Position numbers and translations under genes: made by a program. DNA of 59,946 nt, taken from the NCBI GenBank assembly GCA_017470505.1, contig JAFUYO010000027.1, positions 1 to 59,946 on the forward strand, in the 5' to 3' direction. The stretch's first letter is position 1. Each line of letters opens with the position of its first letter. This document shows, piece by piece, positions 23,383 to 59,739 of the stretch. The stretch comes from Butyrivibrio sp. Its GTDB lineage: Bacteria; Bacillota; Clostridia; Lachnospirales; Lachnospiraceae. The notes under the pieces are model-generated. The model was not told the origin of the DNA, made no database searches, and saw nothing but the letters and a program-made list of their open reading frames with translations.

Positions 23383-24573
23383 TTACTGAACTGCTGCCTT
23401 AAGCTCTTCAGCCTTGTCTGTCTGCTCCCAGGGAAGGTTAAGATCGTTCCTTCCAAAGTGACCGTAGCTGGCTGTCTGCTTGTAGATAGGTCTTCTGAGG
23501 TCGAGCATCTTTATGATGCCTGCGGGACGCAGGTCAAAGACCTTGCGGACTGCCTCCGTGAGCTTCTCATCGGATACCTTGCCGGTTCCGAATGTATCTA
23601 CAAGGATAGATGTGGGCTGCGCAACGCCGATAGCGTAGGAGAGCTGAATCTCTGCCCTGTCTGCAAGTCCTGCTGCCACGATATTCTTGGCAACATATCT
23701 TGCCGCGTAAGCGGCCGAGCGGTCAACCTTGGTGCAGTCCTTGCCGGAGAAGGCTCCGCCGCCGTGACGCGCTGCTCCGCCGTAGGTATCAACGATGATC
23801 TTGCGGCCTGTAAGTCCGGCATCTCCCTGAGGTCCTCCGATAACAAAGCGGCCTGTGGGATTTATGAAGATCTTGGTGTTGTCATCAACGAGCGATAAGT
23901 CAACAACCGTATCAATAACGTGCTTTCTGATATCTGTGTGGATCTGCTCCCGGGTTACCTTCTCATCGTGCTGTGTTGAGATTACGATAGCCTCTAGTCT
24001 CTTGACCTTGCCATTCTCATCATACTCAACGGAAACCTGGCTCTTGCCGTCTGCGCGGAGGTAAGGAAGCGTTCCGTTCTTTCTGACCTCGGTGAGCTTC
24101 TTGGTCAGCTTGTGTGCAAGGCTGATGGCGTAAGGCATGTAGTCATCTGTCTCATTTGTTGCATATCCGAACATCATCCCCTGGTCGCCGGCGCCGATTG
24201 CCTCGATCTGCTCGTCTGTCATCTGGTTTTCTTTGGCCTCGAGAGCCTTGTCAACGCCCATTGCGATGTCGGCTGACTGCTGGTCAAGTGCGACGAGAAC
24301 GGCACAGGTATTGCCGTCAAATCCCTTGGCTGAATCGTCATATCCGATCTCGCATACAGTCTCACGGGCAATCTTTGCGTAATCAACATGGGCCTTTGTT
24401 GTGATCTCACCTGTTATGAGAACAAAGCCTGTGCAGGTCGCTGTCTCGCAGGCAACTCTGCTCATAGGGTCCTCAGCCATGCAGGCATCGAGGATAGCAT
24501 CTGAGATGTTGTCGCAGATCTTGTCGGGATGTCCCTCTGTAACTGATTCTGAAGTAAAAATAAACTTATCCAT
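23383..24573 (-). CDS. metK: S-adenosylmethionine synthetase
   Basis: A 396-aa enzyme that makes SAM from methionine and ATP. It has the ATP-binding [23 protein letters not shown] and the loop [16 protein letters not shown] start at ATG 24573, giving the conserved [19 protein letters not shown]-terminus with AAGGAA just upstream; nine further in-frame codons upstream lie in the leader. Expression is controlled by the SAM-I riboswitch at 24615-24791, so it is repressed when SAM is high. Confidence 0.97.
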
Positions 24574-24614
24574 TCTCTTCCTTTCCGTGTACGAATACAC
24601 TGACGCATTAATGC

Positions 24615-24791
24615 AAAAATCCGCTTGTTGCGTGCACCAACAAGCGGAACTGATCGGGTTTCAGATCCTCATATTGCTCGTTGTTACGCAGACATGCTGC
24701 GCAGTTGCACGCTCAGGTTGGCACCTTCCCGAAAAACAGGGGTTGCCGTGGCTTCACAGGTCCTATGTACCTCCACCACTCTGAATAAGAG
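24615..24791 (-). promoter_or_regulatory. SAM-I (S-box) riboswitch with terminator
   Basis: The minus-strand leader of metK has the S-box signature: CTCTTAT...CAGAGTGGTGGAGG, GACCTGTGAAGCC, ACGGCAACC and AAGGTGCCAACCTG, then ATGAGGATCTGAAACC closing P1. The expression platform is a terminator with 11-bp arms (24620-24648: TCCGCTTGTTG and complement) followed by TTTTT. Binding of SAM should favour the terminator. Confidence 0.95.
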
Positions 24792-58997: not shown

Positions 58998-59030
58998 AAA
59001 AAAACCTATGATTGAGATATCAATCATAGG
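58998..59030 (-). terminator. Terminator of the tRNA/rRNA transcript
   Basis: Perfect 10-bp arms CCTATGATTG/CAATCATAGG followed by seven T on the minus strand, 9 nt after tRNA-Cys. Confidence 0.93.
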
Positions 59031-59038
59031 CTTTTTAG

Positions 59039-59109
59039 AGGTGACAGGCGGATTTGAACCGCCGCTCGAGGTGTTGCAGACCTGTGCCTTACCGCTTGGC
59101 TATGTCACC
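59039..59109 (-). tRNA. tRNA-Cys (GCA)
   Basis: A 71-nt cloverleaf with acceptor GGTGACA/TGTCACC, anticodon GCA, T-loop GGTTCAAATCC and discriminator U, the Cys identity base. CCA is not encoded. Confidence 0.96.
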
Positions 59110-59113
59110 AAAA

Positions 59114-59185
59114 TGACTCCGACGAGAATCGAACTCGTGTTACCGCCGTGAAAGGGCGATGTCTTGACCGCTTGACCACGGAGCC
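59114..59185 (-). tRNA. tRNA-Glu (UUC)
   Basis: A 72-nt cloverleaf with acceptor GGCTCCG/CGGAGTC, anticodon loop CTTTCAC and T-loop GTTCGATTC. CCA is not encoded. Four bases from tRNA-Cys. Confidence 0.96.
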
Positions 59186-59234
59186 AAAGAGTTAGCGACC
59201 GTCTTGTGGTCGCTTACTCTTTGGCTTTGCCGGA

Positions 59235-59266
59235 GTTCTTAGCGAGGTTTCCCACGAGCTTAGAAC
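59235..59266. repeat. Spacer hairpin A (inverted orientation)
   Basis: Outer stem GTTCT/AGAAC around the family core read on the opposite strand. Part of the six-member hairpin family in the rRNA/tRNA spacers. Confidence 0.75.
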
Positions 59267-59316
59267 GTCGGCTGAGCCGTCTGTACAACGACCAACGATC
59301 AAGTTTAATTATACAA

Positions 59317-59345
59317 CACTAAGCTCGAAAATACCTCGCTAAGTG
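59317..59345. repeat. Spacer hairpin B
   Basis: Outer stem CACT/AGTG around AAGCTCG-AAAATA-CCTCGCTA. Confidence 0.8.
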
Positions 59346-59362
59346 CTATCGCTCCGGCTGCT

Positions 59363-59393
59363 CCACTAGACTCGAAAGTACCTCGTCAAGTGG
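59363..59393. repeat. Spacer hairpin C
   Basis: Outer stem CCACT/AGTGG around AGACTCG-AAAGTA-CCTCGTCA. Confidence 0.8.
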
Positions 59394-59406
59394 CCATCCA
59401 GGCTAC

Positions 59407-59437
59407 GCACTAAGCTCGAAAATACCTCGCTAAGTGC
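59407..59437. repeat. Spacer hairpin D
   Basis: Outer stem GCACT/AGTGC around the same core as B; 27 bases are identical to B. It ends 5 bp from tRNA-Asn. Confidence 0.8.
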
Positions 59438-59442
59438 TATCG

Positions 59443-59515
59443 CTCCCCCTGTCGGACTCGAACCAACGACACTTCGGTTAACAGCCGAATGCTCTACCGA
59501 CTGAGCTAAGGAGGA
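59443..59515 (-). tRNA. tRNA-Asn (GUU)
   Basis: A 73-nt cloverleaf with acceptor TCCTCCT/AGGGGGA, D-arm GCTCAGTCGGTAGAGC, anticodon GTT and T-loop GGTTCGAGTCC. First tRNA after 23S rRNA. Confidence 0.96.
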
Positions 59516-59574
59516 TTATTTCAAGATACAACAAGACCATGCTCTCGCATGGCACACTTTGTACCCTCAAAACT

Positions 59575-59617
59575 ACCGGAAATGCGACTCATGAAAAACT
59601 TCGTCTGCATTTTCGGT
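59575..59617. repeat. Spacer hairpin E
   Basis: Outer stem ACCGGAAATGC/GCATTTTCGGT (one wobble) around GACTC-ATGAAAAA-CTTCGTCT, a diverged core. Confidence 0.7.
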
Positions 59618-59620
59618 ATG

Positions 59621-59659
59621 TGTGTCGTTAAGCTCAAAAAAACTTCGCTAAACGACACA
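59621..59659. repeat. Spacer hairpin F
   Basis: Outer stem TGTGTCGTT/AACGACACA around AAGCTC-AAAAAAA-CTTCGCTA. Confidence 0.78.
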
Positions 59660-59739
59660 GCACGAACACTGAAATCGTGCTAAGGTTTGTACCCTCAAAA
59701 CCGAACACTGAAATCATCGAAATTCTAATTGCTCCTATC

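Follow-up and report, generated by a model that had tools for sequence, protein, structure and literature searches.

Hairpins in the spacers of an rRNA-tRNA locus

The window, a 59,946-nt stretch of DNA from a Butyrivibrio genome, ends in an array of RNA genes on the minus strand: in order, the 3' end of a 23S rRNA, tRNA-Asn, tRNA-Glu and tRNA-Cys, with hairpins occupying the spacers (Table 1). An initial annotation had described six hairpins, A to F, with a common core. They are present where it placed them, on the strand of the 23S-tRNA-Asn-Glu-Cys genes, and element A is indeed reversed relative to the others. Five of them (A, B, C, D and F) match a covariance model of the family at 42-55 bits, with E-values from 1e-12 to 5e-9, and are themselves among the 69 sequences in that model; the score of element D is tied for the top among the matches listed from its own genome and those of the family. 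The common core does not extend to all of element E, which is strong as a hairpin and matches the family in its inner core only. We thus count five firm members and one doubtful one. The core pattern AGCGARGTN{2,10}GAGCT has four matches in the whole window, all among these hairpins, against a mean of 0.04 in shuffled sequence (0/100 shuffles reach four). From the gene order, we infer that A to F would be carried on a single rRNA-tRNA transcript.

Table 1. Genes, hairpins and composite units at the end of the window
Feature	Coordinates	Strand	Basis
23S rRNA 3' end, cut by contig end	59740..59946	-	Rfam scan
tRNA-Asn (GTT)	59442..59515	-	tRNA annotation
tRNA-Glu (TTC)	59113..59186	-	tRNA annotation
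tRNA-Cys (GCA)	59038..59109	-	tRNA annotation
Inverted repeat beyond tRNA-Cys	59000-59035		
Element A, core hairpin, orientation opposite to rRNA genes	59234..59267	+	covariance model 42.3 bits, E 5e-9
Element B, core hairpin, repeats start of D+C unit	59315..59347	-	51.3 bits
Element C, second hairpin of D+C unit	59362..59394	-	45.2 bits
Element D, first hairpin of D+C unit, 3 nt past tRNA-Asn end as drawn by ARAGORN	59406..59438	-	55.1 bits
D+C unit including bounding direct repeats GGAGCGATAGC	59345..59446	-	repeats at 59436-59446 and 59345-59355
Element E, long hairpin, common to family in inner GA/GA core only	59573..59619	-	fold z -4.84; 13 bits, E 0.65
Element F, core hairpin, 9-bp outer stem	59618..59661	-	43.0 bits; fold z -3.66
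F+E inserted unit splitting a copy of GATTTCAGTGTTCG plus GTTTTGAGGGTACAAA	59574..59662	-	comparison with uninterrupted copy

Four of the hairpins are arranged in two composite units. The F+E unit interrupts a motif made up of GATTTCAGTGTTCG and GTTTTGAGGGTACAAA, the halves of which lie at 59663-59676 and 59558-59573; an intact copy adjoins it at 59686-59715. The D+C unit is bounded by direct repeats, one of which overlaps the end of tRNA-Asn, and similar bounds are recognisable by eye in two loci of relatives (L175 and L184). In L182 and L184, a member is oriented to tRNA-Glu as element A is, with different letters in its outer stem.

Other features of the region deserve mention. Directly before tRNA-Glu is a 19-bp hairpin (59182-59226; z -9.25) with a weak likeness to the core (15.7 bits, E 0.12), and the tRNA-Asn/Glu spacers of relatives, inspected by eye, also finish in other short hairpins. 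Between the 23S gene and tRNA-Asn (59516-59739) 5S rRNA is absent, and an Rfam scan at the gathering threshold finds none in the window; the 5S gene for this operon is therefore elsewhere or missing. Elsewhere, the minus strand of the window contains an S box leader, or SAM riboswitch (24668-24791; 66.9 bits), upstream of a 405-aa frame at 23383-24600. At gathering scores, the window and 14 further loci yield only tRNA, rRNA and the SAM riboswitch, and no Rfam family for the hairpins; relaxing the search of the spacer to E values up to 1 returns tRNA and one below-threshold microRNA match only.

A covarying stem around a mismatched core

Read 5' to 3', the core fold consists of a variable outer stem, a U.U mismatch, three base pairs, tandem G.A/A.G, a single G-C or A-U pair and a short loop. 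The outer stems differ from copy to copy, each paired with its own complement, as had been noted from the window alone. The accompanying proposal that structure and not sequence is kept describes the stems correctly and the core incorrectly, since the U.U and GA/GA positions are nearly invariant in sequence.

The pairing was measured in 131 copies anchored inside the stem. The search that supplied the source stretches had also fixed the three positions that follow, so that only positions from 4 outward are free. At positions 4-8, there are 127, 113, 99, 87 and 71 Watson-Crick pairs among the 131 copies; permutation of the right flanks lowers these numbers to 68, 64, 59, 36 and 43. Two alignments give a similar picture. 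A1 (69 rows) was assembled from a structural scan that demanded pairing (178 matches, with 3 in a reversed control) and from copies added by name, and it keeps one probable false match (L027:1284-1317); A2 was aligned to the model and includes two weak rows (E 0.03). In both alignments, all 10 of 10 pairs vary on both sides, which is also seen in 2/500 shuffles. The possibility, raised at the outset, that there might be no further copies and no more covariation than in shuffled sequence is contradicted on both counts: copies occur elsewhere, and the covariation score of A1 and A2 is reached by 0/500 shuffles. The anchored test of 131 copies is the cleaner one, because pairing guided the choice of A1, and A2 was fitted to the model.

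Among 82 distinct copies found by the model in the genus, the eight inner pairs comprise 636 Watson-Crick pairs, 13 G.U, 1 A.C, 1 other and 5 gaps, an excess of G.U over A.C (p 0.002). The inner triplet takes 17 combinations in these copies. The U.U mismatch is kept in 82/82, and the four letters of the G.A pairs in 80, 82, 81 and 82 of 82, figures to be read with the lean of model matches toward this core, as the model was built from copies having it. In other genera, we count 6 G.U and 22 A.C, 21 of the latter being CA at pair 7, so that the G.U excess is absent there. The long outer arms show no clear asymmetry between G.U and A.C under an extension scheme that is lenient, with control arms reaching 69 nt at the 95th percentile.

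This pattern of pairing points to selection on a folded single strand, be it RNA or DNA. Within the genus, element strand also follows GC skew (82 to 16 in genus loci, with a further comparison in genome G070), a bias that we do not count separately because it follows gene direction. The strand bias in the genus, taken with a core whose mismatches are conserved, suggests a single-strand fold that is recognised.

Filled and empty spacers

Members of the family are an inconstant feature of rRNA-tRNA loci. Across 30 such loci of the genus, some of them cut by contig ends, only 11 carry a member anywhere. The spacer between tRNA-Asn and tRNA-Glu ranges from 23 to 255 nt in the 24/30 loci in which both tRNAs were found, and 8 of these 24 spacers, our own included, contain one to four members each. 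Behind the 23S gene, 14 of 18 spacers (our own counted here) are 58-80 nt long and without a hairpin unit, and 4 of 18 are 146-154 nt long with a two-hairpin unit of about 85 nt. Filled and empty sites can be paired closely at this position (L176 versus L177, and L181 versus L180).

The same is seen elsewhere. The spacer between tRNA-Gly and tRNA-Arg varies from 3 to 404 nt (25/30 loci), and 17/30 tRNA-Pro/Gly/Arg loci carry a member anywhere. At one of these (L280), the flanks are common to L271 and a second family unit sits in the loop of the first hairpin; similar nesting is found in L277. Several short tRNA-Gly/Arg spacers that have no core (L275, L278, L279, L283, L285 and L287) contain, by eye, a hairpin whose sequence is species-specific yet paired.

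The initial annotation had offered rRNA/tRNA processing as one possible role. We reject a conserved processing signal, as equivalent spacers are filled in some species and empty in others. Since many relatives lack the hairpins and element A is antisense, we regard those of the window as insertions of a dispersed repeat rather than as signals of the operon.

Distribution

Copies are dispersed over the genome and the family. The genome from which the window comes has at least 23 model matches, 5 of them inside the window. With one genome taken per genus, a match is present in at least 55 of 200 Lachnospiraceae genomes, and a phylum-wide sample gives at least 3 of 199 (the same genome, a congener and a weak match in another family); both counts are lower bounds, as up to 35 candidates were scored per genome under strict filters. 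The exact pattern occurs in at least 119 stretches of genome contigs. Most of the 80 matches listed with titles are Lachnospiraceae or clostridial (Butyrivibrio, Robinsoniella, Hungatella, Mediterraneibacter, Konateibacter and others), and one is titled Bacteroides. Viral contigs contain no exact match to the pattern, which argues against viral carriage. Lachnospiraceae are common in the gut and rumen. Neither Rfam nor the open-access papers listed in our literature searches yielded a repeat of this family, with its non-Watson-Crick core.

An apparently mobile unit and the search for its mover

The core is constant, and the sequences around it differ from genome to genome. In Robinsoniella-type genomes, it forms the centre of a transposable element of about 196 bp (mostly 194-196 bp) with inverted ends GTAACAGTTCAGCC. 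Among 28 elements with these ends, to which this count is confined, 9 are flanked by a perfect 8-bp duplication of the target and 13 by one matching at 7 or more of 8 positions (permuted mean 0.54). Perfect duplications of other widths were found in 1/28 at 7 bp and in 0/28 at 6, 9 or 10 bp. The flanks are inverted rather than direct in 4/28; in L118, L123, L054 and L320 they are 12-nt inverted copies, so that the palindrome continues past the ends of the element. Genome G077 has 125 matches to the core pattern and 263 to the end sequence. There (L293-L322), units with a different centre, such as TTTTCTAGTAAAGATGG, are bounded by GTAACAGTTCAGCC too, and several contigs of this draft stop near GTAACAGTTCAGCC.

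No ends of the GTAACAGTTCAGCC type were recognised in the Butyrivibrio units. In genome G078, the twelve core pairs that were fetched (L234-L245) are all arranged minus then plus, about 350-3600 bp apart, with differing contents. These pairs look like a composite unit of two hairpins.

The search for a transposase covered two families, Y1 and IS66. Y1 genes were not found in the genome of the window (83.9% complete), yet they have matches in 16/19 genomes of the genus. The three genomes with high copy number (G077, G078 and G080) contain broken or below-cut-off Y1 matches only, and four further carriers (G081, G083, G084 and G085) contain none. Members lie near 2 of 12 Y1 loci (L163 and L164), one of the two checks having covered 10 of the 12, and the member in L163 belongs to a tRNA-Gly/Arg spacer. 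Together, these counts disfavour RAYT/Y1 as the mover. Ends in GTAA and 8-bp duplications are traits of the IS66 family, which we considered on these grounds; no IS66 transposase was found in G077. For an autonomous partner with the same ends, the analysis of that genome covered IS66 and intact Y1 matches, of which there are none, and, by eye, the frames at 11 of 30 end-repeat loci; a partner from another family may exist.

Placement behind stop codons in Butyrivibrio

We examined the surroundings of 100 genus loci, hand-picked from model and pattern matches; many matches near contig ends and with other loop lengths were left out. In 70 of these the element is co-oriented with both neighbours and in 8 it is opposite to both; 11 are convergent and 4 divergent, and the rest are at a contig edge (4), inside a gene (1), a duplicate (1) or without a match (1). 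The sense copies crowd behind the upstream gene. Of 81 upstream genes in sense, 42 end within 15 nt of the core, 19 of them exactly 7 nt before it, and 2 of 74 downstream genes in sense start within 15 nt of it. In 111 named loci of other genera, 38 are co-oriented and 24 opposite (p 0.10), and a gene ends within 15 nt in 4/52. Eight loci titled Butyrivibrio in the exact-pattern set likewise show no bias (2 co-oriented, 3 opposite). A role at 3' ends may therefore be limited to some subtypes.

When 50 copies are read with the frame of the upstream gene, the outer stem in many of them includes the stop codon, often together with the last codon, and the far arm matches. Scored in 43 copies, the far arm fits the end of its own gene with a mean of 13.7, against 8.6 under permutation (0/2000); in 7 of the 43, a copy's own far arm scores below its mean against the arms of other copies. 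The frame listing and this test used a narrower loop, and the comparisons of homologues and of T-runs described below a wider one.

A homologous gene with an element is present in a second genome for 23/51 loci, and the arms can change together between the two. The gene at L394 ends AAG TGA GCTC and is followed by far arm GAGCTCACTT; its counterpart at L432 ends AAG TAA TCAC, with far arm GTGTACTACTT. Both arms also differ between L408 and L435 and between L031 and L368. L370 and L376 have different units behind the same stop codon. That stems containing the stop codon are kept across species with compensatory change suggests, on sequence comparison, that such copies may have an RNA role at 3' ends.

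These hairpins do not resemble intrinsic terminators. A run of five T within 5-30 nt past the core is found in 0/51 of the genus copies at 3' ends, and within 30-90 nt in 9/51. None of A-F is among the three terminator-like sites of the region.

Interpretation

It is probable, in our judgement, that the hairpins are copies of a mobile palindromic repeat of Lachnospiraceae, similar to REPs and MITEs, in which the folded strand is under selection, that the spacer copies are tolerated insertions, and that the copies at 3' ends probably act as RNA. Of the proposals in the initial annotation, a small palindromic mobile repeat has fared best: the family is present in at least 55/200 genomes, one type has target duplications, and sites are found both filled and empty. 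A protein-binding RNA family, also proposed there, would be consistent with a non-Watson-Crick core that is conserved and with copies placed in sense behind stop codons.

We envision mosaic palindromic repeats whose short units, each with one or two hairpins, would disperse across genomes, arriving by transposition with the enzymes presumably supplied in trans. Where a copy lies behind a stop codon or the 3' end of a tRNA and folds in the sense strand, it could then be retained for its RNA hairpin. A protein that reads the G.A core would probably bind it, and the RNA 3' end or the terminating ribosome may thereby be shielded or timed. In the window, such units would have inserted into the tolerant 23S-tRNA and tRNA-tRNA spacers, with element D coming to lie right behind tRNA-Asn.

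Alternatively, the family could be purely selfish MITE-like DNA. Its fold, formed in single-stranded DNA, would then serve nothing but the transposition machinery, and stop-proximal positions would simply be the least harmful sites. The inverted ends and 8-bp target duplications of one type are consistent with this, as are the patchy spread, the nested insertion and the lack of a clear orientation bias in other genera. However, selfish copies should decay after insertion, and nearly half of the loci compared have an element-bearing homologue in a second genome; some homologous pairs differ on both arms in step, once with a different stop codon. A sense bias of 70 to 8, with 19 copies exactly 7 nt past the stop, is also hard to derive from harm avoidance alone. 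We hold this alternative to be possible and on balance doubtful.

The reading of a mobile repeat with a selected fold can be carried a step further, into a proposal that we consider unlikely and offer as speculation. The element may build its stem from the host: on sense insertion behind a stop codon or tRNA end, the far arm would become the complement of the host's near side, and the stop codon would be locked in a hairpin that a dedicated protein recognises. An RNA intermediate, or a single-stranded one, might serve for spread by folding back and copying the target. Such a SINE-like 3'-end element could have been domesticated as a general device for translation termination or RNA ends in Butyrivibrio.

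Template-switch correction of quasi-palindromes is known in bacteria, and by perfecting imperfect palindromes it could produce paired arms without any selection on structure. The outer arms of the long palindromes, copy-specific yet nearly perfect, are what such a process would leave. It would also erase central mismatches, yet 80-82 of the 82 distinct genus copies, located by a model that leans toward this core, retain U.U and GA/GA, and the mismatches left over in the genus are G.U and not A.C. These two observations disfavour template switching as the sole cause of the pairing, and we judge it quite improbable.

That the hairpins are conserved processing signals of this operon, cleaved in the manner of RNase III, is very improbable: all window copies do lie between genes of one rRNA-tRNA cluster, with D directly after tRNA-Asn, but the equivalent spacers are empty in many relatives, 19/23 scanned member loci have no tRNA gene at all and A is antisense. 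Scarcely more credible are REP elements moved by a RAYT (Y1) transposase, for which one can cite the small intergenic palindromes, the conserved stem mismatches, the Y1 genes of most genus genomes and the many copies near stops, as described for E. coli REPs (PMC12306157), and against which stand the want of an intact Y1 in the three high-copy genomes, its absence from the four further carriers and the genome of the window, the scarcity of members near Y1 loci and the lack of an invariant column in flank positions 9-15.

A stop codon within a covarying stem ties mobile repeats to the 3' ends of RNA and to the termination of translation. Genes that occur naturally in pairs, one with the hairpin and one lacking it, provide ready material for a test. 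The window also carries a caution, as a hairpin in an rRNA or tRNA spacer need not be a processing site and can be a mobile repeat.

Comparison with known repeats and RNA structures

The hairpins share with intrinsic terminators a position at gene 3' ends and differ from them in lacking a T-run close behind the core. A likeness to MITEs lies in the Robinsoniella-type elements, which have inverted ends, duplicate 8 bp of their target and mostly measure 194-196 bp; unlike MITEs, the family has one central hairpin within different outer sequences in different genomes. A survey of human microbiomes, as summarised in its report, described 250 candidate structured RNAs of palindromic form, among them 20 that may be REPs or belong to another class (PMC8040213). 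The four examples named there are mostly or only from Bacteroidetes, and some overlap of our family with unnamed candidates is possible.

The REP/RAYT system offers a further comparison. REP and BIME sequences, in the accounts cited, are short intergenic palindromes of many copies with paired units and conserved stem mismatches, some copies lying within 15 nt of a stop codon (PMC8266576; PMC12306157). Our family has the same short palindrome, many mostly intergenic copies, paired units, conserved stem mismatches and copies within 15 nt of stops. REPs are further described as having a fixed tetranucleotide, GTAG or CGTC, at one end (PMC3733652). In contrast, the hairpin family has no such tag in the 131 copies, where no column of flank positions 9-15 on either side is invariant, and no RAYT partner was found for it. 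Its core of U.U and tandem G.A, its near confinement to Lachnospiraceae and its stems that include the stop codon set it apart as well. REPs of E. coli that lie no more than 15 nt from a stop codon are reported to stall ribosomes (PMC12306157), and these stop-proximal REPs are, among the systems compared here, the closest precedent for an RNA role of the Butyrivibrio hairpins at 3' ends.
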